Positions 2,162 to 26,265 of a stretch of DNA of 27,342 nt are shown piece after piece. The notes beneath the pieces were generated by a model that made no database searches, was not told the DNA's origin, and worked only from the letters and a program-made list of their open reading frames with translations. The position numbers and the translations under genes were made by a program. The first letter of the stretch is position 1. Each line of letters starts with the position of its first letter. The stretch is from a virus: IMG/VR virus record IMGVR_UViG_3300042453_004124, positions 1-27,342 of that record; one strand, written 5' to 3'.

Positions 2162-2693
2162 ACCTCGCAAGATCAAATCATACCTCGACACGCAGAAGTC
2201 TAAGAAGCAGGCGATGATGCCGAATGTCATCAAAAAGGCGCAGTCTAAATTGCCGCCAAAGCCTGAAATGCACGAGGATGACTACGACATGGAGCATGAC
2301 GAGCATGCGGAAGAAGCAATGCAGTCTGCTCACAAAGGCGGCATTGGTAAGCCGATGCCCGCAATGAAGGGCAAGGATGCTGAAAAGAAAGCATTGCAAG
2401 CCATGAAGGCCATGGCAGAGCTTATCGCAGAAGAGCTGGAGGAAGGCGAATGCGATGACGACGTTATGATGCTCATGGCAGACTTCGATCCTGATGAAAT
2501 GCCCGAATGGGTCTTGGATGAAGATATTTGGAAAAAAGCCTCAGAGATTGTAGACCCTGAAGGAGAAGGCGCGGAGTACGCCGACCCCTACTCGGTAATC
2601 GCTCATCTATACAAGAAAATGGGCGGAAAGTTTGAAGGGCTTGAAGAGTACGAAGAGAGCGATGACGAAATGGAAGAGGAAGAGGAGGCATAA
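2151..2693 (+). CDS. Acidic head-associated protein with YKKMGG signature
   Basis: A 180-aa protein, basic at the N-terminus (KPRK-like start, QKSKKQ) and strongly acidic after residue 40, ending in a run of Asp and Glu. Residues 113-159 form a recognisable block: DPDEMPEWVLDEDIWKKA followed by VDPEG and then DPYSVIAHLYKKMGG. From memory this W-x(4-6)-W...DP...AH-x-YKKMGG block is common in small phage proteins near head genes, but its function is unknown to me. The start at 2151 is supported by AAGGA at 2139-2143; the upstream in-frame ATG at 2103 lies deep inside the MuF-like gene and lacks a ribosome site. The GAGGAGG near its 3' end serves as Shine-Dalgarno for the next gene. A scaffold-like or packaging-accessory role is possible. 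Confidence 0.7.
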   Translation: MAIEPRKIKSYLDTQKSKKQAMMPNVIKKAQSKLPPKPEMHEDDYDMEHDEHAEEAMQSAHKGGIGKPMPAMKGKDAEKKALQAMKAMAELIAEELEEGECDDDVMMLMADFDPDEMPEWVLDEDIWKKASEIVDPEGEGAEYADPYSVIAHLYKKMGGKFEGLEEYEESDDEMEEEEEA

Positions 2694-2926
2694 TGGCATC
2701 TAAAGCACTGTATGTCGGCTATCCGTACGACCAGCCTTCAATGAAGGGTGAGGGGACTCTATACAAAGAGTCTGAGTATCATGGCAGCGGTGCTCGAATT
2801 GCCCTGCCTCCTGAGTCAGAGATTCGCCGTCGTAAAGGCGACTTGAGCATGTCCAATATCAAGGACTTTGAACCGCGAGCGCTGTCTCATTCCGGATTGC
2901 CGTTCGCCAACCTAAAGAGAGGCTAA
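2693..2926 (+). CDS. Small protein, C-terminal PF motif family, member 1
   Basis: A 77-aa basic protein of unknown function. Its ATG shares one base with the TAA of the preceding gene, and GAGGAGG lies just upstream, so initiation looks efficient. The N-terminus is Tyr/Gly-rich (YVGYPYDQPS) and no fold is evident. The C-terminus reads GLPFANLKRG (68-77), related to the (M/L)PF-x-L ends of the next three small proteins. Next gene begins two bases after the stop. Possibly a capsid-interior or minor structural protein; this is inference from position. Confidence 0.7.
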   Translation: MASKALYVGYPYDQPSMKGEGTLYKESEYHGSGARIALPPESEIRRRKGDLSMSNIKDFEPRALSHSGLPFANLKRG

Positions 2927-2927
2927 C

Positions 2928-3152
2928 ATGGCTGCACACAAGGGCGTTGGATATCGGACACCGAGAACGCAGGCGATGAAGATGGGTACAGAGGCCAAGG
3001 GCTTTGAGGGTGGAATTCCCTACGATGCAATGGGTGGAGTTCCATCTTCGGTGGCTCGTGGCTCTTACAATGACTTTGCTGACGAGGCAAAGCTCAGCAT
3101 TGGCAAGAACAAAGCAAGCATCCACTACACGATGCCTTTTGTTTTGAAGTAA
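2928..3152 (+). CDS. Small protein, C-terminal PF motif family, member 2
   Basis: A 74-aa basic, Gly/Ala-rich protein of unknown function, with AAAGAGAGG upstream of the ATG. Residues 1-50 are probably disordered (GVGYRTPRTQ, GGIPYDAMGGVPSS). It ends with IHYTMPFVLK, the cleanest instance of the motif shared by the four mini-proteins. Its likely role, inferred from context, is a minor head component or a short partner peptide binding a common capsid or portal surface through its tail. Confidence 0.7.
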   Translation: MAAHKGVGYRTPRTQAMKMGTEAKGFEGGIPYDAMGGVPSSVARGSYNDFADEAKLSIGKNKASIHYTMPFVLK

Positions 3153-3164
3153 ACGGAGGGGATT

Positions 3165-3353
3165 ATGGCTCACATGCCGAACTGGAAATATGCAGAGAAT
3201 GTCGGTCAAGGTAAGAAACACAACGACGTGATGGAAGTGTATGATGCCCATTACGGCAAATACAACTGTCACTGTGTCGAACAGGCAAAACTTCCCGCAA
3301 ACAAGGTAAAGGGATCCGTTTACGAGTCTCTGCCATTTGAACTCAAAAAATAA
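3165..3353 (+). CDS. Small protein, C-terminal PF motif family, member 3
   Basis: A 62-aa protein of unknown function with a good ribosome site (CGGAGGGG before the ATG). It contains one Cys-His-Cys group (CHC at 40-42) and several His and Tyr residues, too few for a confident metal site. It ends VYESLPFELKK, aligning with the ends of its neighbours. Spacing to the flanking genes is about 11 bases on both sides. Confidence 0.7.
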   Translation: MAHMPNWKYAENVGQGKKHNDVMEVYDAHYGKYNCHCVEQAKLPANKVKGSVYESLPFELKK

Positions 3354-3364
3354 AGAGGTGTCAC

Positions 3365-3559
3365 ATGCTCAACATGAATGAAATCGGTGTAGGCAAGAAG
3401 TATCACACTGTAGAGGAAGCACTGAAGGCTAAGGGCATGTATCGCGACGCAGCGATGTCAATTCCACAGGCCGACCGCTTGCAAATCAACCAAATGCCAC
3501 AGGGTCGCGACCCTATGCCTTTCGCTCTCGGCCCAATGGCGAGCGGACAGCGTAAGTAG
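3365..3559 (+). CDS. Small protein, C-terminal PF motif family, member 4
   Basis: A 64-aa protein of unknown function; AAAGAGGTG precedes the ATG. It has a short predicted helix around YHTVEEALKAKGMYRDAA and the motif MPFAL (51-55), here followed by nine extra residues (GPMASGQRK), so the motif is not at the very end as in members 2 and 3. It closes the run of four mini-genes directly before two larger putative head proteins. Confidence 0.7.
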   Translation: MLNMNEIGVGKKYHTVEEALKAKGMYRDAAMSIPQADRLQINQMPQGRDPMPFALGPMASGQRK

Positions 3560-9716: not shown

Positions 9717-11711
9717 ATGGCAGGATTCATTCGTTACTTTTCAGCATTTCCTTCGGTTGCAGAGATCACAGAGATCTCAGGCGCATTCATTGTCGATGTG
9801 CCCCCTCCGACCACCCCACCGGTTCCGGGTTTTGGCAAAGTCATTATGATTGGCGAATTTGCTGACATGAGCTTTGCCACTGATGTTGATGACAGTGGAA
9901 ATGTCACTACACGCCTTCAGCCGGTTGAGATTCTTTCGTCGCAAGACCTGATCGACAAGGTCGGCGCTTTTGACCCGTCGCTAGGAGACTTTGGTGGCGC
10001 TTCTGGAAACGGCTTTGTTGCACTGCGCAACAAGCGATTCAATGGCGGCCTAGTCGCCGTTCCTCTGAATCTTGCGTCAAGCAAGGGCGTTCGTCTCGTT
10101 CGTGAGCTTCCCACGAATAAGTCTGTTACAGACCCTTCTCCCGTTGTGCCTATGCAGCAGGCTTTTGTTCTCGCAGGCTCCGAGTTTGTTCTCGGTGCCA
10201 ATAGAGTCCATCTTGCAAAGTCACAGGGCTTCACCGATGACAGTGCATACGTTGTCTCTACATCTGGCGAGACGACTGCTGTAGTCGCCGGCGCGAATTT
10301 TGACTTTGAAGATACAACTGCAACTTTTGTTACAGACGGAGTCGCCGTCGGTGACATCCTTGTACTTGGTAAGGTTGGCGCGGCCGGCGCTAACGGCCTG
10401 AATGCAGGCACATACCGCATCATTTCAATTATTGATGAGACTGCTCTTACCGCAGAAGCAATGGACGGCTCTAGCCTCGACATTGCTGCATCCGCTGGTG
10501 CCGAGCTTGTCTATCGTATTCACCCTGCAGCGACTGCAGATTCCGGTGCGGGCAAGGATTACTCAGATGTCGGCGGTTATTTGTTGCCGGCTCGTCCTCT
10601 TGACGCAACAATCGCGGAAAGCTCTTCACTTTTGCCGGTCATTCCTGCCGACCCCGCAAACGCAACATCTACAGACTGGGATGCTTTCTCCGGCTTGCAG
10701 ATGCTGATTATGCCCGGCTCGGGGAATGACCTAGTATTCACCTCGGCTATTCAATCGGCAAATCCGGTTAACGGCCCTGAGCTTGATCAGCTTTATGTTG
10801 ACGCGATCGAAGCAACAATGACGGATGACCTCCCTATCGGTGGCTCTTCGTTTATTCTTTGCGCAAGAACATCTTTGACGATTCGCCAGACTCTCGCTCA
10901 GCACGTTCGTATCGCCCTTGCAGATGGCATGCTCCGCATTACAGCCATTTCTCCGGAGCTGACGACCACGTCTCTCGCGACTGTTCTTGGCTCTTCTGAT
11001 CCGGGGGTCGGCGCAAACAGAAGCGACCGTGTTGTCTACAACTGGCCCGGCGCTCGTATCTTGATTCCAGAGGCCGTCGGCGTTTCCATCAAGGGTGCAG
11101 ATGGTGTTTCTCGCACAGATGGTATCCTTGACGTAACAACAGACGCATTTGCAATCTCAGTAATGAGCGGACTTCCTCAAGAGCGTGACCCCGGTCAGTC
11201 AGCAGAGCCTGTGCCGACGATTCTCTCTCCGATTTTGGGACTTCAGCGCAATGCTCCCAAACTCGGACTATCAGAGCACAAGCAGCTCAAGAAGGCCGGC
11301 GTAATGGCTCTTCGCATGACATTGGATGTAGGCCCTGTCTTTCAAGAGGGAATTACAAGCTCTCTTGTTGACGGCACTCAGGATGTGAATCGTCGTCGCT
11401 TTGCCGACTTCATTGAGCAGTCACTTGCAAGCATCTATAACCTATATGCTAAGCAGCCGCTCAATGACAATCTAAAGAACGACATCTTCTCCCAGACAGA
11501 TGCCTTCCTGTCTCAGTTGAAGTCTGCAAATAACCCTGCTCTTGCTCGTCTGAACGACTATCAGATCGACAAGATCAACGGTAATACTCCAGACCGAGAG
11601 CGACAGGGAATCTATGTCATTATTGTCAAAGTACAGATGTTCCCAATCGCGAAGTTCATTGGTATCCAAGCAGAGGTTGGGCCAAATGTCGTGATTCAGA
11701 CATCTCTCTAA
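9717..11711 (+). CDS. Tail sheath protein
   Basis: A 664-aa protein with the hallmarks of contractile-tail sheaths: an N-terminal PSVAEITEISG segment (interlacing arm), long variable beta-rich middle domains, and a conserved C-terminal core with VVYNWPGARI...PEAVGVSIKGADG (about 437-462), DAFAISVMSGLPQERDPGQ, then KKAGVMALRMTLDVGPVFQEGITSS (about 523-548), DVNRRRFADFIEQSLASIYN and an ending beta strand (GIYVIIVKVQMFPIAKFIGIQAEV). The sheath polymerises around the tube and contracts on infection. GAGGGAA precedes the ATG. Its presence defines the phage as myovirus-type. Confidence 0.95.
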   Translation: MAGFIRYFSAFPSVAEITEISGAFIVDVPPPTTPPVPGFGKVIMIGEFADMSFATDVDDSGNVTTRLQPVEILSSQDLIDKVGAFDPSLGDFGGASGNGFVALRNKRFNGGLVAVPLNLASSKGVRLVRELPTNKSVTDPSPVVPMQQAFVLAGSEFVLGANRVHLAKSQGFTDDSAYVVSTSGETTAVVAGANFDFEDTTATFVTDGVAVGDILVLGKVGAAGANGLNAGTYRIISIIDETALTAEAMDGSSLDIAASAGAELVYRIHPAATADSGAGKDYSDVGGYLLPARPLDATIAESSSLLPVIPADPANATSTDWDAFSGLQMLIMPGSGNDLVFTSAIQSANPVNGPELDQLYVDAIEATMTDDLPIGGSSFILCARTSLTIRQTLAQHVRIALADGMLRITAISPELTTTSLATVLGSSDPGVGANRSDRVVYNWPGARILIPEAVGVSIKGADGVSRTDGILDVTTDAFAISVMSGLPQERDPGQSAEPVPTILSPILGLQRNAPKLGLSEHKQLKKAGVMALRMTLDVGPVFQEGITSSLVDGTQDVNRRRFADFIEQSLASIYNLYAKQPLNDNLKNDIFSQTDAFLSQLKSANNPALARLNDYQIDKINGNTPDRERQGIYVIIVKVQMFPIAKFIGIQAEVGPNVVIQTSL

Positions 11712-11738
11712 TCAATAGATAAAAGAAGGAGTGTAGAT

Positions 11739-12185
11739 ATGCCTACAGCAGCCCCAGCACAGAGAATTAAAGGACAAGAGGTACAAGTCCGCTTGTTTGA
11801 GAACAATCGCCTGATTGCAAACATCACCGAGGTCAAGTCTTTTGAGATTTCTCTTCAGACGGAAATCATGAAGGAAGGCTACCTCGGCGAGACAACAGAC
11901 CGTCGTGACGAAGTCTTTCGTGGTGTGACGGGCAAGATGGACGTTCACATGAAAGACCCTGCGGTCTTTACTCTCATGCAGAAGATTTCCGACCGTGCTC
12001 AGCGCAGAACACCGGGAATTCAAATTGATGTTCGTGCGACGTTCAACTTCCCCAACGGGACACAGCGTACTGCCGTAATCTCAAATCTCTTTTTTGGAGA
12101 GATGCCAATTAGCGTCGGCGGTAGAACAGAGTACGTCTCGTCGACACTGAACTTCGAGGCGGACGCAGTAAACTTCATCTCCTAA
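11739..12185 (+). CDS. Tail tube protein
   Basis: A 148-aa beta-rich protein right after the sheath gene, matching the usual sheath-tube order and tube size. It has the tube-like pattern of strands around VQVRLFENNRLIANITEVKSFEIS, then MKEGYLGETTDRRDEVFRGVTGKMDVHM, and ends in RTEYVSSTLNFEADAVNFI. The segment GETTDRRDE followed by G-x-(T/S)G forms the conserved loop region of myovirus tubes. It stacks as hexameric rings inside the sheath. AGAAGGAG precedes the start, and a strong hairpin terminator follows the stop. Confidence 0.9.
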   Translation: MPTAAPAQRIKGQEVQVRLFENNRLIANITEVKSFEISLQTEIMKEGYLGETTDRRDEVFRGVTGKMDVHMKDPAVFTLMQKISDRAQRRTPGIQIDVRATFNFPNGTQRTAVISNLFFGEMPISVGGRTEYVSSTLNFEADAVNFIS

Positions 12186-12198
12186 TCTCTTTTCAACA

Positions 12199-12240
12199 AC
12201 AGAAAGAGTGAGAACGCCTGTCTTCACTCTTTCTGTCTTT
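12199..12240 (+). terminator. Intrinsic terminator after the tube gene
   Basis: ACAGAAAGAGTGA (12199-12211) pairs perfectly over 13 bp with 12224-12236 around a 12-base loop, followed by CTTT. The stem is long and exact; the T-tract is short, so read-through into the chaperone operon is likely. Confidence 0.75.
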
Positions 12241-12304
12241 ACAAATTCATGCCTGTATCTTATAACACCTTTGCCCATAGTTCCGGGCTAAAGGAGAAAC
12301 AGAC

Positions 12305-12691
12305 ATGGATCTATTGCAACTCGCCAACAAGCAGCAAGACAACATCGTTGTTTTTGAGTTTTCTATCCCGGCCAAAGCCCAGAGCACGGTGCCGGGTCTT
12401 GGAAAGATTGAAAGCATTGGACTTGCTGAGCTGACCGCCTCAGACGAATTGCTCGCAATTGCCAGAGCCAAGAATGGTTCTGCCATGCAGATTGCACATG
12501 AACTTGCCAAGCAGTCGATTGCCACCGCAAATGGTAAGGCAGTGAGCTTTGCCGATGGAACGATTGACCTTCTTTGGCAAAAGGCGAAGCCAGCTCTTCG
12601 TTCGATGATTCTTTCGGCGTATAACAAACTGAATCAGCCTAACGAGGAAGAGATGGACAGTTTTTTGAACAGCATGCAAATGAAAGTATAG
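12305..12691 (+). CDS. Tail assembly chaperone, short form (gpG-like)
   Basis: A 128-aa protein between tube and tape measure, the standard place of tail assembly chaperones, which coat the tape measure and recruit tube subunits. It starts with a good AAGGAG (12291-12296) before the ATG. A short beta segment (NIVVFEFSIPA) is followed by alpha-helices (ELLAIARAKNGSAMQIAHELAKQSI, IDLLWQKAKPALRSMILSAYNKL). It stops at TAG 12689-12691; just before the stop, a slippery heptamer lets part of the ribosomes shift into the -1 frame and make the longer form (see the 12305-12873 entry). Confidence 0.85.
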   Translation: MDLLQLANKQQDNIVVFEFSIPAKAQSTVPGLGKIESIGLAELTASDELLAIARAKNGSAMQIAHELAKQSIATANGKAVSFADGTIDLLWQKAKPALRSMILSAYNKLNQPNEEEMDSFLNSMQMKV

Positions 12692-12873
12692 AGCGCAAAA
12701 AAAGCATCTGGAAAATGCTCGCCTTCTGTGCTCGCTATGGGCATCAGCCTCTTGATGTAATTATGCGTATGCCGTTCAAAGATCTTCTTGCGTTTGCTCG
12801 TGCTCTTAGTAGTCTGTTAGAAGAAGAACGCGGAAATAGTTGGCAAGAACATCTTATCAGCGGTGGTAGCTAA
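12305..12873 (+). CDS. Tail assembly chaperone, -1 frameshift long form (gpGT-like)
   Basis: Reading codons from 12305 through TTG at 12665-12667 and then slipping back one base gives a 189-aa product. The -1 frame runs open from GAA at 12667 to TAA at 12871-12873 and adds 68 residues (EQHANESIERKKSIW...CARYGHQPLDVIMRMPF...SLLEEERGNSW...), a helical, charged extension like the T part of lambda GT. The extension frame has no ribosome site or credible own start, and its stop overlaps the tape-measure ATG. Open overlap between the two frames is limited to 12643-12691, which contains the slippery heptamer. In this family a fixed ratio of short to long product is needed for correct tail assembly. 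Confidence 0.85.
12644..12667 (+). promoter_or_regulatory. Programmed -1 frameshift signal
   Basis: The heptamer T TTT TTG lies at 12661-12667 with frame-0 codons TTT and TTG, the X XXY YYZ pattern for tandem -1 slippage. A Shine-Dalgarno-like GAGGAAGAG (12644-12652) sits about 8-12 bases upstream, as in bacterial dnaX-type signals. Downstream, AGCAT (12671-12675 or 12703-12707) can pair with ATGCT at 12715-12719, a weak possible stimulator. Confidence 0.75.
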
Positions 12874-15800
12874 TGCAGCCAGTTGTCCTTCCTTTTATAG
12901 TCGATGATAAAGCATCCGGCCCTCTTGCCGCCATTGCCGAGAACCTTGAAAAAGTTGCAAAAGCGACTTCAAGTGCATCTGCACGAGTACGGAATTTTGC
13001 AAAAACATTCACGGTATTAAATGAGGCGGTGACAAATGCTGCTCAAACCCTAAATACTACACAGTTCAAAAAAGGCAACCTAAACGCATACTTGCAGGTA
13101 ATGCAAGCGACCACGAATCAGTTAAAGGCGCAGGCCGCACATCAGAGACAACTGAACGCTGCACAAATGGTCGCCGCTCGACAACAGGCCGCAATTATAA
13201 GAGCGAATGCTTCTGCTTCGGCTACGGCTCATAAGGCGCAACAGGCGGCAATAGCTCAGACTGCGGCTTTGCAGCAGAAGACGGCCGCTCAAACGGCGGC
13301 AATGCAGCAAAAGGCGGCGGCCCAGACAGCAGCAATACAGCAGCAATCGGCCGCAAAAGCGAACGCGGCCAATGCCCTCGCCGCTCAGCGACAGGCAAGA
13401 ACAGCTCAGATACAGGCGAGAGGAAGTGGCGGTGGTGGTGGAGGCGGTGGAGGCGGTGGCTTAGGGGCAGTTACGTCTATTGGTGCTAACATTCTCAAGG
13501 CCGCCAGTTATGGCCTATCAATCGTATGGAAACTGACAAGAGATATTGTAGGTGTCGCTAAATTCCTTATTAGCATTCCGGGTCAGATATACTCTATTGG
13601 GAAAGCTGCATTTGACGTTATTTCCGGAGCGCTAGACAAGATAGTTCAACTTACAAGTCGTATCATTGAGATGGGCAACGAGTTTGAGAAGTTTCAATAC
13701 TCGTTCGCTTCAATGCTTATGGCCACAGGTGACTTTGAAGGAGTCAAAAACCAGTCTGAGAACATCATCGCGTCACTAGAATACGCAAACATGCTCTATG
13801 AAGACATGGTTGTCTTGGCGGCGGAACTTCCCGGTGAAGCTCAAGACTTCATGGACGCATTCTTGCTCGCGTTGCCTTCTGGGTCGAGAGTGGGTCTAAC
13901 CGACCCGCAAGAATTTATGGAGTTGTCCTCAAACGTTACCGCTATCGGTATCAGTTTGGGTCACTCCGCGTTGCGAGCCGGTAACTCTCTCAATCAGTTG
14001 CTGCAAGGAACGACTACCAAGCAAAATGCTCTTACGCAAAAACTCTTGACATCAATCGGAATGGCTACCGTTCAGTTCAACAAACTGAGGCCGGAAGAGC
14101 GACTAGCCAAGATCAAAGACATCGTAGACGCATACGGCGACGGCATCGAGTCATACAAGAATACCTATGACGCTCTCAACTCTACGATGCTTACTCACCT
14201 GAAGGAAATCGCTCGTATTGGTACAAAGCCAATCTTCGAGCATTCCAAGGTTGCTCTTAGAGAAATCAATCTACTGCTTGAACGATTTGGCCCGACGGTC
14301 ACCGACATGCTCTGGGAATTGTCAATGGATGTGCTCGACTATGTCGTAGCAATCCAGAACTATCTCAGGCCAATGTTTGATGACGCAACATACTATATAG
14401 CGGTTGCGCTAGATAAGAGTAGGGGATTCTTCGAGTCTTTCATCGAAGGAATTCTGTCAGTAATTCCATTCATCAAGCAGATTGGCAACGCCATCAAAGA
14501 AACGGCCATGAAAGTCTTTGGGTATCTTGGAGTCAAGATACCTAAAGTAGATGTCCCCAAAGTTGTCTTGGGATATCCAGAGCAAATTGAAAATTTCATC
14601 TCGGAACAATTCAAGGCCCATACACCAGAAGCAAAGAAGGAAAAAACGGCCAATAGAGAAGCACTCAAAGTTGCCTACAACGCGGCAATGGCAATTGAGC
14701 CATTTATTCCAAAGCAAATGGAGCAGTTCGCCAAGGCCGTCGGATTGAGCGGAGAGAAAGTCGCTCTGTTCGGAAAAGAACTAAAGTTTGAGGCCGAAAG
14801 AAAAGAATATGAAAAGAGATTCTTGGAAGTAAAATTTCCGTATCAAACAGTAGGTGGAGACTTCAGTTATCTCAAGAAGTCAATGCAACCCGCGTCTGAA
14901 AAGAAAAAACAAGCGGGAGAATACGACAAGTACAAAGATGTCGTTGAATACGAAAAGGGCCGTGCGAAGCCGACCATCGGAGAAGACCCTATTGTTTTCT
15001 ACGCGGGGAAGGTTATTGCATCCGTATTAAGTGCACTGATCGGCATTCCCGCCGCAATTGAGTCTTTCTACGCAGACCTTCCAAGCGGAATTGAAGTTGG
15101 ACTTGCCGCCGCATCTCAAGCTAGTCAGCAGTTCGCAGGTCTAACTCTTTCTACAAGCACGTCACTCATTAAACTGCATGATGGAATCTTTGGTTTAATT
15201 TTAGGATTTGGTCTAATAAAAGCTGCGGTACTGCCGATGCTCACGTCTTTAGCCGGAGGCATTGCAAGTATATTCGGCATGCTTGGGGGCTACTTCCCGA
15301 TCATTGGCCGAATCATATCTGCAATCAGCGCGGCCGGCCCAATTGCAATAATTGTTGGCATCATAGGAGGATTCCTCCGGTTTATGACATATACCGAGCA
15401 GTTCGCAATCTTCATGGGTGAACTACAGCTTGCTGGAGCTGAACTGGCCAGTGCATTACTACTCTTTGGTCGCATGGTAGGGTATATTTTCGACGCGATT
15501 GGTGCCGCATTTGCCGGACTGCTGCCCGGAGTGATGGCATTTATTTCGGGACTTGCTTCAGTGCTAAATGTAATTTTGTTTGTCGTTGAAAGAGTACTTA
15601 CACCGCTAATCAAGCCGTTTATAGCATTCATAAAACTGCTCGCATCCATATTTGGCTTTGTCTTCTCTCTGTTCGGCGCGATGGCTAAATCCGTCGCGTG
15701 GGCAATAATTGAAATATATAACTTCGCCAAAAGCAACACATGGATATCTTCCATAATTAAGGGGATTGGCGCAGTATTCCTTTGGTTTAATGACGCATTA

Positions 15801-16718
15801 GGCTCACTAGCGACGGCCGTTGATCGTGTTGCTGGATGGATGCTTGGAACCTCAACCAAGGGGCTAGGAGAAGCCAAAAAAGAATCTGGCATGTTTGGAG
15901 GACTCTACGACAAGGCACTAGATCTTTTTGGTTTGGATTCAGGTAAGTACAAGCCTAAATACAAATACTCGGAAGAGACGACCAAGGGCTTTTCTAAGAT
16001 CGCGGACATAGCCGCTACAAATTTTCAATCACAAGTACAAGGCAGTCTAAAGTCGGCACTTAGTTCAGGGGAAATCCTTTCCTCTGAGAAAATAAAAAAA
16101 CTTGGAGAGCCAGTCTCGGAGGCATTTAGAGAACAATTTGCAGAAGCGGAGAAACTAGCGTCGACAAAGGGAGACTACACAAAACTGTTTGAGATTGCCG
16201 CCGAGCAGTTGACTCTTTCACAAAGATTTAAGGGCTTTGGAAAAGATGTTGGATTGTCATCTACTGAATTCATTGAGACGGGTGCCGGAGCTATTGGACT
16301 TCAGGCTTTAGCTGTCGAACAGCAAAACAAGGCACTAAAAGCATACTCGGACAAGGCACTATCAGCATTAGAACCTCAGATTGAAGCAATGCTGCCCTCA
16401 GTCTATACCGAAGACATGAAGAAAGATGCACTTCAAATAATACTTGGCGATATCAAAGAAAGATACGCCGGGGCTACTTGGACACAGTTTGAGCCAATGG
16501 ATATACATACACCGGAAGCGGCCAAAGAAGTTCCGAAGTTCGCCGGCAAGGGCCTCAATAACTATCAAGACTTCCGAAATTCCCGATTCAGCATCAGTCA
16601 GAAATTTGAAGAGGGCTTTGACCCAGACCGTATTGCGGTTGCATTTACGCAAGATCTGTCGAAGATCGGCGAAAAGAGAATCCAGAGCGGTCTCTCCCCA
16701 CTTTACACTGTCAGATAA
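12873..16718 (+). CDS. Tail tape measure protein
   Basis: A 1281-aa protein, the longest in the window, located after the chaperones as usual. Residues about 1-185 are helical and very rich in Ala and Gln (repeats such as AAQTAAMQQKAAAQ), then a run of 11 glycines around residues 187-198, then amphipathic and hydrophobic helices. A large membrane-like block lies at about 765-960 (many Ile, Leu, Gly and Ala residues; for example GPIAIIVGIIGGFLRF and VFSLFGAMAKSVAW), typical of tape measures that insert into the host membrane during DNA delivery. No lysozyme or peptidase motif is evident. The protein sets tail length; its start shares one base with the frameshifted chaperone's stop (TAATG), implying coupling. 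The C-terminal third is charged and helical. Confidence 0.9.
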   Translation: MQPVVLPFIVDDKASGPLAAIAENLEKVAKATSSASARVRNFAKTFTVLNEAVTNAAQTLNTTQFKKGNLNAYLQVMQATTNQLKAQAAHQRQLNAAQMVAARQQAAIIRANASASATAHKAQQAAIAQTAALQQKTAAQTAAMQQKAAAQTAAIQQQSAAKANAANALAAQRQARTAQIQARGSGGGGGGGGGGGLGAVTSIGANILKAASYGLSIVWKLTRDIVGVAKFLISIPGQIYSIGKAAFDVISGALDKIVQLTSRIIEMGNEFEKFQYSFASMLMATGDFEGVKNQSENIIASLEYANMLYEDMVVLAAELPGEAQDFMDAFLLALPSGSRVGLTDPQEFMELSSNVTAIGISLGHSALRAGNSLNQLLQGTTTKQNALTQKLLTSIGMATVQFNKLRPEERLAKIKDIVDAYGDGIESYKNTYDALNSTMLTHLKEIARIGTKPIFEHSKVALREINLLLERFGPTVTDMLWELSMDVLDYVVAIQNYLRPMFDDATYYIAVALDKSRGFFESFIEGILSVIPFIKQIGNAIKETAMKVFGYLGVKIPKVDVPKVVLGYPEQIENFISEQFKAHTPEAKKEKTANREALKVAYNAAMAIEPFIPKQMEQFAKAVGLSGEKVALFGKELKFEAERKEYEKRFLEVKFPYQTVGGDFSYLKKSMQPASEKKKQAGEYDKYKDVVEYEKGRAKPTIGEDPIVFYAGKVIASVLSALIGIPAAIESFYADLPSGIEVGLAAASQASQQFAGLTLSTSTSLIKLHDGIFGLILGFGLIKAAVLPMLTSLAGGIASIFGMLGGYFPIIGRIISAISAAGPIAIIVGIIGGFLRFMTYTEQFAIFMGELQLAGAELASALLLFGRMVGYIFDAIGAAFAGLLPGVMAFISGLASVLNVILFVVERVLTPLIKPFIAFIKLLASIFGFVFSLFGAMAKSVAWAIIEIYNFAKSNTWISSIIKGIGAVFLWFNDALGSLATAVDRVAGWMLGTSTKGLGEAKKESGMFGGLYDKALDLFGLDSGKYKPKYKYSEETTKGFSKIADIAATNFQSQVQGSLKSALSSGEILSSEKIKKLGEPVSEAFREQFAEAEKLASTKGDYTKLFEIAAEQLTLSQRFKGFGKDVGLSSTEFIETGAGAIGLQALAVEQQNKALKAYSDKALSALEPQIEAMLPSVYTEDMKKDALQIILGDIKERYAGATWTQFEPMDIHTPEAAKEVPKFAGKGLNNYQDFRNSRFSISQKFEEGFDPDRIAVAFTQDLSKIGEKRIQSGLSPLYTVR

Positions 16719-23812: not shown

Positions 23813-25042
23813 ATGGCAAATAAGCCTTTTGATAGAGAGATCATAAACGTAAGAGAGCGCCCATTTTCCTCTGACATTAATCTGTCAGAGTATTATGCCG
23901 ACTTATCTTTGCGCGAAACAATAAAGAACATTATTACGTCGCGCACATCCATATCAGACCCGAATCCAAATGTATCAACAACAGCAAGGTTTCTTGGCTC
24001 TTCATTCAAGGTTGTGCCAACGTCTCCAGAGTCTGGCGCTGTTTTAATCTCAAAAGGATTAGGATTTGTAGGTTCCTCAGACCAAGAAATAAATATCAAT
24101 AGTGTTCTTGGACTGAATGAGACATCTGAGTTAAAGCCCTTAGTGTTGTCTGCAAATAAACTCGTAAATGTTCCTCAATTATCAGACCCTCTTTTTAGTC
24201 GGATTGATATCATTGAGGTTCGCTCTGAATATTTAACAACAGACAGCACAAGCAGGGACATTTTTGACCCAGTAAATGGAACGTTTAATCCTACGCCGGT
24301 TGCCAAAACACTCACATGGGCACTTGATCAGAGTCTTGGCTATGTAGACAGCTCGGACAATAGTACGACGGCGATAGGCTACAAAAAGGGACAACCAATA
24401 ATCACAATCGGCGGCCCTCCGAACGCTCCAGAGGTCACACAAGGATACACAAAGATCGCAGAGGTATTCGTCTCGGGTGGCGGCTCAGCATACTCCGCAA
24501 CAAATATTGTCGATTGCAGGAAAATTGCATCGGAGTATGGAATAGTAAAGATCTCAGGGAAGATAGAACTTCCGAACCTGATGGTCACGGATGAAACAGA
24601 CCTTGCCGTGCTTCAGCCGACACTCATTGAAGTCAGTTCTCCTCCCGGAGTTATCGTGTCAACGCGAATCGTAAGTGCCGTTGTCGATGCCGGAGATGCT
24701 ACTGCCGGGTCAAAGAAGACTTATGAGATAGTTGTCGTCGGTAATTTTGACATCGCTAAGTTTTCATATTCCTTGACCGGGAATTATGAAAAACGACTTT
24801 TGAACAATATTATTCAGCCGAAAACATACGCACTAGAAGCGTTGACCGACAATATTGGCAACGTAAGAAGGATAGCGTATCAGACCGACGGTAGCCCAAT
24901 TATTGTAGTTAATGGCTCGCAGCAATGCGCAATACTTCAATTCGTTTGTCAAGACGAAGTCGGCAGAATAGTGACTGGTTCATATTCTCCTCCGACGGTA
25001 ACAGACCCGGCAATTGTTGATTTCTTTGTTGAGTTATCATAG
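23813..25042 (+). CDS. Putative baseplate-periphery/tail-fibre protein, paralogue A
   Basis: A 409-aa protein, clearly homologous to the next gene product. Shared blocks include NKPFDR at the start, NVRE, SRxSIS, FKVxPxSP, GLGF/GLGV, GLN(D/E)TS, KPLVL/KPVVL, RIDIIEV, TxWxLD, GYTKIAEV/GYTKIAEI, DxRKI, YGxxxIS...LPNLxVT. The composition (Ser, Thr, Val, Ile, Asn rich, few cysteines) suggests a beta-rich trimeric or wedge-bound structural protein. No collagen repeat, lectin motif or enzyme site is visible. Location after gpI suggests a fibre base or baseplate decoration. The residues 200-225 vary most between the two copies. Confidence 0.65.
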   Translation: MANKPFDREIINVRERPFSSDINLSEYYADLSLRETIKNIITSRTSISDPNPNVSTTARFLGSSFKVVPTSPESGAVLISKGLGFVGSSDQEININSVLGLNETSELKPLVLSANKLVNVPQLSDPLFSRIDIIEVRSEYLTTDSTSRDIFDPVNGTFNPTPVAKTLTWALDQSLGYVDSSDNSTTAIGYKKGQPIITIGGPPNAPEVTQGYTKIAEVFVSGGGSAYSATNIVDCRKIASEYGIVKISGKIELPNLMVTDETDLAVLQPTLIEVSSPPGVIVSTRIVSAVVDAGDATAGSKKTYEIVVVGNFDIAKFSYSLTGNYEKRLLNNIIQPKTYALEALTDNIGNVRRIAYQTDGSPIIVVNGSQQCAILQFVCQDEVGRIVTGSYSPPTVTDPAIVDFFVELS

Positions 25043-25053
25043 GAACGACATAA

Positions 25054-26265
25054 ATGTCCAATAAGCCATTTGATAGAAACATATCAAACGTCAGAGAAAA
25101 ACTTATCTCCGGCGACTTCAATCTGATGCAATCATATTCGGACTTAGCGGTAAGAGAATTTATTCTTCACACCGCGTCTCCGAGGTCGAGCATTTCAAGT
25201 GACATTCTTCTAAGAAACTATGGGGCTAGATTCGCTTCCGATGGATTCAAGGTTCGACCCGCGTCCCCTTCTGGCATGTCAGTTGTTGTCGGTTCCGGGC
25301 TGGGTGTCATTGCAAACTCAACAGATGTGCCTACCGACATTGATTCTATTTCCGGGCTAAATGACACTTCCGCGATCAAGCCGGTCGTGCTGACGGAAAA
25401 CCAAGAATTCATCGTTCCAGACAACGTAGGATTCTTGACTCGTATTGACATCATTGAAGTAGCATACAATCGAGATGTTACCGATACGCAAACAAGAGAC
25501 ATCCTGAATCAGACGAGCGGTAGTTTTCTTCCGGGAGCAGTTGATAAGACCCTGAGTTGGGGATTGGACGGCCTAACAGGAAATGTCGTATTCCCCGCAT
25601 CAAGTTCAGAGCCTTTGTCATATAAGAGAGGGCCGGCAACTGGAGCGGTTCCTCCGACAACATCAGGCTATACTAAAATTGCTGAGATTGTTGTTGCGCC
25701 GGGAGCAACGACAATCGAGGAAAGTAACATTGCTGACTTTCGGAAAATTATTGGGCCTTACGGACAAATTGTTGTAGCAGCGACAATTCAATTGCCCAAT
25801 CTCAATGTCACCAATCCATTGCAGTTGATAAGTGGCTTGAAGCCGACAATAGTCAGTCTATCAGCTCCGGCCGGCATGTCGGTTTCATGCTATCCCGTGA
25901 CCAACAAAAAAACTTTTGACTTTGTTATTACAGGCGATTTTTCATCTGTCGCCGCTACTGTTCGAGCTGTCGGTTCTTTTGATGAGACATCCTCGGTACT
26001 GAGTGAGTTACGCTCAATGGCAGTAGACACTCGTATCAGAAGTGCTGAGGTTTCAGACATCGGAGCCTCTCGTGCTTCAAGCATGGCAAATAGTTCTATT
26101 GCCGACCCAGTACTTTCTCTCCCAGAGACGCAGCGAGCAGCAATTATAAATTTTTGTCCGTATCAGATTGTTCTTAGCGGCTCTGACATTGAGTACAAGA
26201 CAATCGTTAGTTCAACGGATGCAGATCCGATGACAGTATCTTTGATTGCAGTGTTGCAATACTAA
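25054..26265 (+). CDS. Putative baseplate-periphery/tail-fibre protein, paralogue B
   Basis: A 403-aa protein, the second member of the tandem pair, with the same order of blocks as the 23813 gene (NKPFDR, NVRE, SRSSIS, FKVRPASP, GLGV, GLNDTS, KPVVL, RIDIIEV, SWGLD, GYTKIAEI, FRKI, LPNLNVT) over about 260 residues. The C-terminal about 130 residues diverge (here Ser/Ala-rich with DIGASRASSMANSS). Only 11 bases separate the genes. The pair may form a hetero-oligomer or two successive rings or fibre segments; function not recognised. The following gene starts with GTG after GAGGTGG. Confidence 0.65.
   Translation: MSNKPFDRNISNVREKLISGDFNLMQSYSDLAVREFILHTASPRSSISSDILLRNYGARFASDGFKVRPASPSGMSVVVGSGLGVIANSTDVPTDIDSISGLNDTSAIKPVVLTENQEFIVPDNVGFLTRIDIIEVAYNRDVTDTQTRDILNQTSGSFLPGAVDKTLSWGLDGLTGNVVFPASSSEPLSYKRGPATGAVPPTTSGYTKIAEIVVAPGATTIEESNIADFRKIIGPYGQIVVAATIQLPNLNVTNPLQLISGLKPTIVSLSAPAGMSVSCYPVTNKKTFDFVITGDFSSVAATVRAVGSFDETSSVLSELRSMAVDTRIRSAEVSDIGASRASSMANSSIADPVLSLPETQRAAIINFCPYQIVLSGSDIEYKTIVSSTDADPMTVSLIAVLQY

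Follow-up and report, generated by a model that had tools for sequence, protein, structure and literature searches.

Tailed phages from lambda to P2 make two forms of a tail assembly chaperone by means of a −1 frameshift; in lambda, the part shared by the two forms binds the tape measure protein, and binding of the tube subunit falls to the extension (PMC5009743). In P2, the gene concerned is E, whose slip site has been given as T TTT TTG (PMC3091744). Here we analyse a locus of the same layout in a 27,342-base stretch of DNA from an uncultivated virus, referred to below as the window. Judged from its sequence, a programmed −1 frameshift at T TTT TTG very probably yields a second, longer tail assembly chaperone. 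A first-pass annotation had proposed these two forms, and the proposal is borne out by the conservation of both frames and of the slip codon in homologues and by a chaperone-like predicted fold.

Gene order around the chaperone

The window carries a contractile-tail gene set comprising sheath, tube, chaperone, tape measure, a LysM-like protein, baseplate hub and baseplate J, the last of which matches PF04865 in Pfam (E = 3e-25). By sequence, then, the source virus is a contractile-tailed phage (myophage lineage). The chaperone gene is a short gene between those for the major tail protein and the tape measure (Table 1), which is the layout of the G/GT class. A near-identity search with positions 9717–16718 gave nothing useful among named phages, and neither did tblastn searches of named phages with the sheath, chaperone and extension of the window and the tubes of two relatives (L002 and L007).

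Table 1. Features of the window and of its chaperone locus
Feature	Position	Strand	Basis or remark
Whole stretch (the window)	27,342 bases		IMG/VR record IMGVR_UViG_3300042453_004124; uncultivated virus
Tail sheath gene	9717–11711	+	PHROG phrog_23 tail sheath, E = 1.1e-5
Tail tube (major tail) protein	11739–12185	+	3′ of sheath; tube family mark QRIKGQE; relatives in L002–L083
Shine–Dalgarno AAGGAG of chaperone gene	12291–12296	+	8 nt 5′ of ATG 12305
Zero-frame tail assembly chaperone (G-like/E-like), 128 aa	12305–12691	+	Position; 47-row alignment A4; AlphaFold2 model
SD-like GAGGAAGAG, probable frameshift stimulator	12644–12652	+	Family-wide anti-SD pairing peak
Slippery heptamer T TTT TTG (−1)	12661–12667	+	In phase; slip motif at homologous codon of relatives; same in P2 gene E
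−1 frame extension, 68 codons + TAA, motif ARYGHQ	12667–12873	+	Open frame; family alignment A5; −1-only profile matches; three-helix model
Tape-measure-like protein, 1281 aa	12873–16718	+	Position; length; weak phrog_339 tape-measure match, E = 0.003

The gap between the tube stop (12185) and the chaperone start (12305) contains an element resembling a terminator (12199–12236), in which a T-rich stretch comes after a hairpin of 14 perfectly matched bp (ACAGAAAGAGTGAG ... CTTCACTCTTTCTGT). The long tube–chaperone gap also holds stable hairpins in many relatives (L002, L034, L038, L041, L056, L062 and L075), and these hairpins perhaps lower chaperone expression relative to that of the tube. Elsewhere in the window, four small consecutive ORFs at 2693–3559 (77, 74, 62 and 64 aa) share a terminal or near-terminal motif, [LM]PF.., and look like diverged copies of one small protein. 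On the 3′ side of the baseplate genes, two adjacent paralogous genes of ∼405 aa occupy 23813–25042 and 25054–26265 (MANKPFDREIINVRE... and MSNKPFDRNISNVRE..., respectively).

Two overlapping frames share a probable slip site

The chaperone frame reads the heptamer as A_GT TTT TTG (codons AGT TTT TTG), and because of this phase both tRNAs, on TTT and on TTG, would be able to re-pair in the −1 frame. The −1 frame itself is closed by a TAA at 12640–12642, is open from 12643 to 12870, and ends with a TAA at 12871–12873 that overlaps the tape-measure ATG at 12873 (TAATG). The two frames overlap over 49 nt (12643–12691), or 16 codons, and the predicted fusion protein has 121 + 68 = 189 residues. The GAGGAAGAG stretch ends 8 nt 5′ of the heptamer, with its AGGA core 12 nt from it. 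The 128-aa ORF and the in-phase heptamer within the overlap, both described in the first-pass annotation, can be read directly from the DNA. By itself TTTTTTG is not rare, occurring 12 times on the two strands of the window against 8.35 expected; in-phase X_XXY_YYZ motifs make up 0.32% of the codons in the window's genes, so that 0.05 would be expected in a 16-codon overlap.

The two-frame layout recurs in relatives

Relatives were collected by way of the tube protein and not of the chaperone. Of the single sequences used to scan viral contigs, the tube alone brought up a relative, and the chaperone, the extension, the sheath and the tape measure brought up none. Direct searches with the chaperone were unproductive because the chaperone itself is too divergent. 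The tube search returned one relative, L002, and an alignment of its tube with that of the window then returned 80 loci. A collection of bacterial and archaeal genomes added one further locus, L083. L083 lies on a contig of 19 kb in the bin of a fen Armatimonadetes MAG, which is a hint as to the host of this phage lineage. The chaperone homologue of L002 is 33% identical to that of the window (E = 1e-13), has GAT TTT TTC aligned with the AGT TTT TTG of the window, and is accompanied by a −1 frame with a matching ARYGxQ motif.

With near-copies set aside, there are 62 distinct loci including the window, of which 59 were compared in detail; the others are L050, L052 and L064. The two-frame layout recurs across all 62, with the extension in the −1 frame and a slip motif at the same place both in the 59 and in the remaining three. 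In nearly all loci the zero-frame stop follows at most 8–15 codons after the slip site. In four relatives the −1 frame is closed by a stop codon right up to the slip site; in the shortest cases the zero-frame stop ends 27–30 nt later, and the switch is therefore confined to the interval from slip site to zero-frame stop. The first-pass annotation had suggested aligning homologues, and in about 60 relatives such an alignment places the slip site at the same codon and finds both frames conserved. Because of this conservation at the homologous codon, the slip site in the window is not a chance occurrence.

The same evidence bears on whether the −1 frame is simply a decayed remnant, or one half of a single gene split by a sequencing indel. 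Neither frame matches a known family, which would suit such a reading, but some sixty divergent contigs, drawn from many metagenomes, show this split at the homologous codon, and the extension is conserved. This conservation of split and extension refutes both versions, and we allow them a practically negligible probability.

A single relative, L051 (6918–7689), has its extension shifted by +1 from the chaperone frame. Its aligned codons are ATG TTT CTC, and a +1 slip at TTT_C, or a −2 slip, is possible there.

The slip codon is fixed and the motif changes

A canonical heptamer is present in 39 of the 59 loci (TTTTTTN in 25, GGGAAAA in 5, AAAAAAR in 4, AAATTTT in 3 and GGGTTTY in 2). The other 20 have a tetramer alone, T_TTT or T_TTC, mostly 5′ of a CTN codon. 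The three loci with displaced or shorter genes, L050, L052 and L064, carry T TTT TTT, T TTT TTT and G GGA AAC, respectively.

Codon choice at the site is strongly constrained. Where the P-site codon encodes Phe (45 loci), the preceding codon is NNT in 44 and the Phe codon is TTT in 43; the codon usage of the individual loci predicts about 9 of each, and 200,000 simulations reached neither count, although the sequences are related and not independent, the motif nonetheless changing repeatedly on the tree. The NNT–TTT constraint holds in loci of up to 72% GC. The one exception to NNT, L058, fits when the site is placed one codon further along (GAG TTT TTT CTG). The residue preceding Phe may be D, S, A, G, L, V, H or Y; what is kept is thus the base and not the amino acid.

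On the tube-protein tree, a minimum of 14 changes is needed to account for the six motif classes, compared with 28.6 in shuffles, and heptamers and tetramers interchange repeatedly. The nearest relative of the window, L003, also has T TTT TTG. Neither SD-like pairing nor downstream folding is significantly stronger in the tetramer-only members than in those with heptamers (P = 0.13 and 0.09, respectively). On balance, we favour the reading that the slip codon is fixed while the motif turns over freely, and that about one-third of the members would shift −1 on a bare T_TTY, a slip of one tRNA helped mainly by the SD-like stretch. No report of tetramer slips in tail chaperones was found in the freely readable literature that was covered.

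An SD-like stretch precedes the slip site

SD-like stimulators at such positions are known in bacterial frameshifting (PMC4066793). Across the relatives, anti-SD pairing has a sharp peak in windows of 8 nt that end 6–14 nt before the slip site, with a mean of −4.6 kcal/mol at the peak compared with about −1.2 kcal/mol upstream. When the sequences were resampled synonymously with each locus's codon usage, the SD-like pairing was −5.44 ± 0.27 kcal/mol as against −6.36 kcal/mol observed, and none of 100 resamplings was as low. The SD-like stretch is thus a family-wide feature, due partly to conserved acidic residues and partly going beyond what the protein needs. The stimulator proposed in the first-pass annotation accordingly stands at the level of the family; for the window taken alone, GAGGAAGAG is no stronger than the protein sequence dictates (synonymous P = 0.48). 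No downstream structure is consistent across the relatives (mean z −0.83 compared with −0.41 for the control; window z −0.32), and likewise no downstream hairpin has been reported for P2-like phages (PMC3091744).

The T6 homopolymer at the window's slip site would also suit slippage by RNA polymerase, in which case the fusion would be made from altered transcripts (transcriptional realignment). However, the GGGAAAA, AAATTTT and GGGTTTY motifs of relatives, or four Ts alone, suit re-pairing of tRNAs and not polymerase slippage, and the SD-like stretch points to the ribosome rather than the polymerase. We consider transcriptional realignment improbable in the extreme.

The extension is a conserved family lying in the −1 frame

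When searched with a profile of the extension, 52 of 60 loci give a match at E ≤ 1e-3. All of these matches fall in the −1 frame and none in the 0 or +1 frame; the eight unmatched loci are truncated contigs or distant members. R24 and E55 are invariant in the 43 rows of alignment A5. After the slip site and ahead of the RYGHQ motif, nearly all relatives have a hydrophobic stretch of ∼14 residues, like GLTSLAVGISLAEVR; the extension of the window (12667–12760) is without it.

Could the −1 frame be a separate small gene, translated from ATG 12715 by coupling or by re-initiation after the stop at 12691? This ATG sits 24 nt past the chaperone stop, and the 52-aa ORF that it opens ends on TAATG. 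It is the sole −1-frame start before the conserved motif in the window, but its upstream sequence gives no SD pairing (0 kcal/mol). Among the relatives, no start is conserved in the −1 frame: the starts are scattered and SD-poor, and before the motif five members lack one altogether. A separate gene would, moreover, leave the upstream NNT–TTT codon constraint unexplained, and we judge it very improbable. The description in the first-pass annotation of a frame with no ribosome site of its own, ending on the tape-measure start, thus agrees with the sequence, and the counter-evidence that it had named, a start and ribosome site belonging to the downstream frame in homologues, did not appear among the relatives.

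The extension is predicted to form a helical domain of three helices (pLDDT 89). Foldseek and VIA-align searches with this model gave weak matches to helical proteins, none of them informative, and for this reason the suggested function of the extension is taken from the T part of lambda.

Predicted fold of the chaperone

The AlphaFold2 model of the chaperone, made from alignment A4, has a pLDDT of 93 and a pTM of 0.81. In Foldseek, the first two ranks in the PDB are both the HK97 tail assembly chaperone 2OB9 (E = 0.03, probability 0.90–0.93). The best VIA-align match is YqbN 3KLU (Z = 7.4, 101 residues aligned, rmsd 5.9), with 3FGX at Z = 6.1, 2OB9 at Z = 5.9 (101 aligned, rmsd 5.0) and 5IR0 at Z = 5.6; the next row, an unrelated protein, has Z = 2.5. 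Among predicted viral structures, the matches include FS-gp41, the frameshift product of Mu, and phage proteins that carry the name ‘tail assembly chaperone’. The model therefore resembles the chaperone fold of the HK97/YqbN type with moderate scores, and a fold by itself shows no function. None of the Pfam Phage_TAC models, P2 GpE or the PHROGs gave a meaningful E-value for the 47 chaperone and 43 extension sequences, the one weak match being to Phage_TAC_7 (E = 0.09). As no Pfam or PHROG family recognises either part, the name rests on position, recoding and fold, and it is these together, the fold scores being moderate, that lead us to identify the gene as a tail assembly chaperone.

DISCUSSION

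The anatomy of the locus, its conservation and the chaperone-like fold are the observations from which we infer a course of events in the cell, with a slip rate, an action of the stimulator and roles for the two forms. Most ribosomes would stay in the zero frame and make the 128-aa form. At AGT TTT TTG, pairing of the GAGGAAGAG just upstream with 16S rRNA may pause or pull the ribosome, and for a minority of ribosomes the two tRNAs would leave TTT and TTG and re-pair one base back, on TTT and TTT. Reading in the −1 frame would then run to 12873 and give the 189-aa fusion. By analogy with gpG and gpGT of lambda, the shared N-terminal part would coat the tape measure protein and the extension would recruit tube subunits. 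Because the two forms have these distinct proposed roles, the ratio between them, set by the slip rate, would matter for tail assembly.

The locus adds an uncultivated phage lineage to the G/GT class, one of which family libraries miss both halves. Some 60 relatives, with one fixed codon and differing motifs that include tetramers in high-GC genomes, form a natural mutational series, and this series lets one ask what the motif, the SD-like stretch and the following codon each add to the slip rate.

The nearest parallel is gene E/E+E′ of P2, also a contractile-tailed phage, with the same order of sheath, tube, E/E′ and tape measure and with an extension that ends at the tape-measure start, as in the window. 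In the P2 genome (NC_001895), we see the site as GGT TTT TTG, the same in-phase heptamer. The suggestion that U UUU UUG might be a testable variant consequently falls, since P2 gene E uses an identical site (PMC3091744). What separates the two is sequence: neither the chaperone nor the extension of the window has detected similarity to known chaperone families, and the extension carries [AG]RYxHQ. Lambda, a siphovirus, likewise encodes its chaperone (gpG/gpGT) between the genes for tube and tape measure and has a −1 extension; its slip site is G GGA AAG. No sequence similarity was found between the window and either lambda gpG/gpGT or HK97, whose chaperone is among the best PDB matches of the predicted fold. 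This is, then, a new, sequence-unrelated lineage within the known G/GT (E/E+E′) class, and the novelty is modest, lying in the turnover of the slip motif and in the tetramer-only sites.

The −1 motifs given in the PRFect survey are other than these tetramers (PMC10885494). U_UU.C and U_UU.U are among the most slippery tetramers in Escherichia coli and occur in IS3-family elements (PMC4066793). The IS3-family sites slip −1 on T_TTT or T_TTC without a heptamer, as the 20 relatives of the window would. They differ in that the IS3 tetramers lie in transposase genes and were tested with a pseudoknot stimulator, whereas here the gene is that of a tail chaperone and an SD-like stretch lies 5′ of the tetramer.
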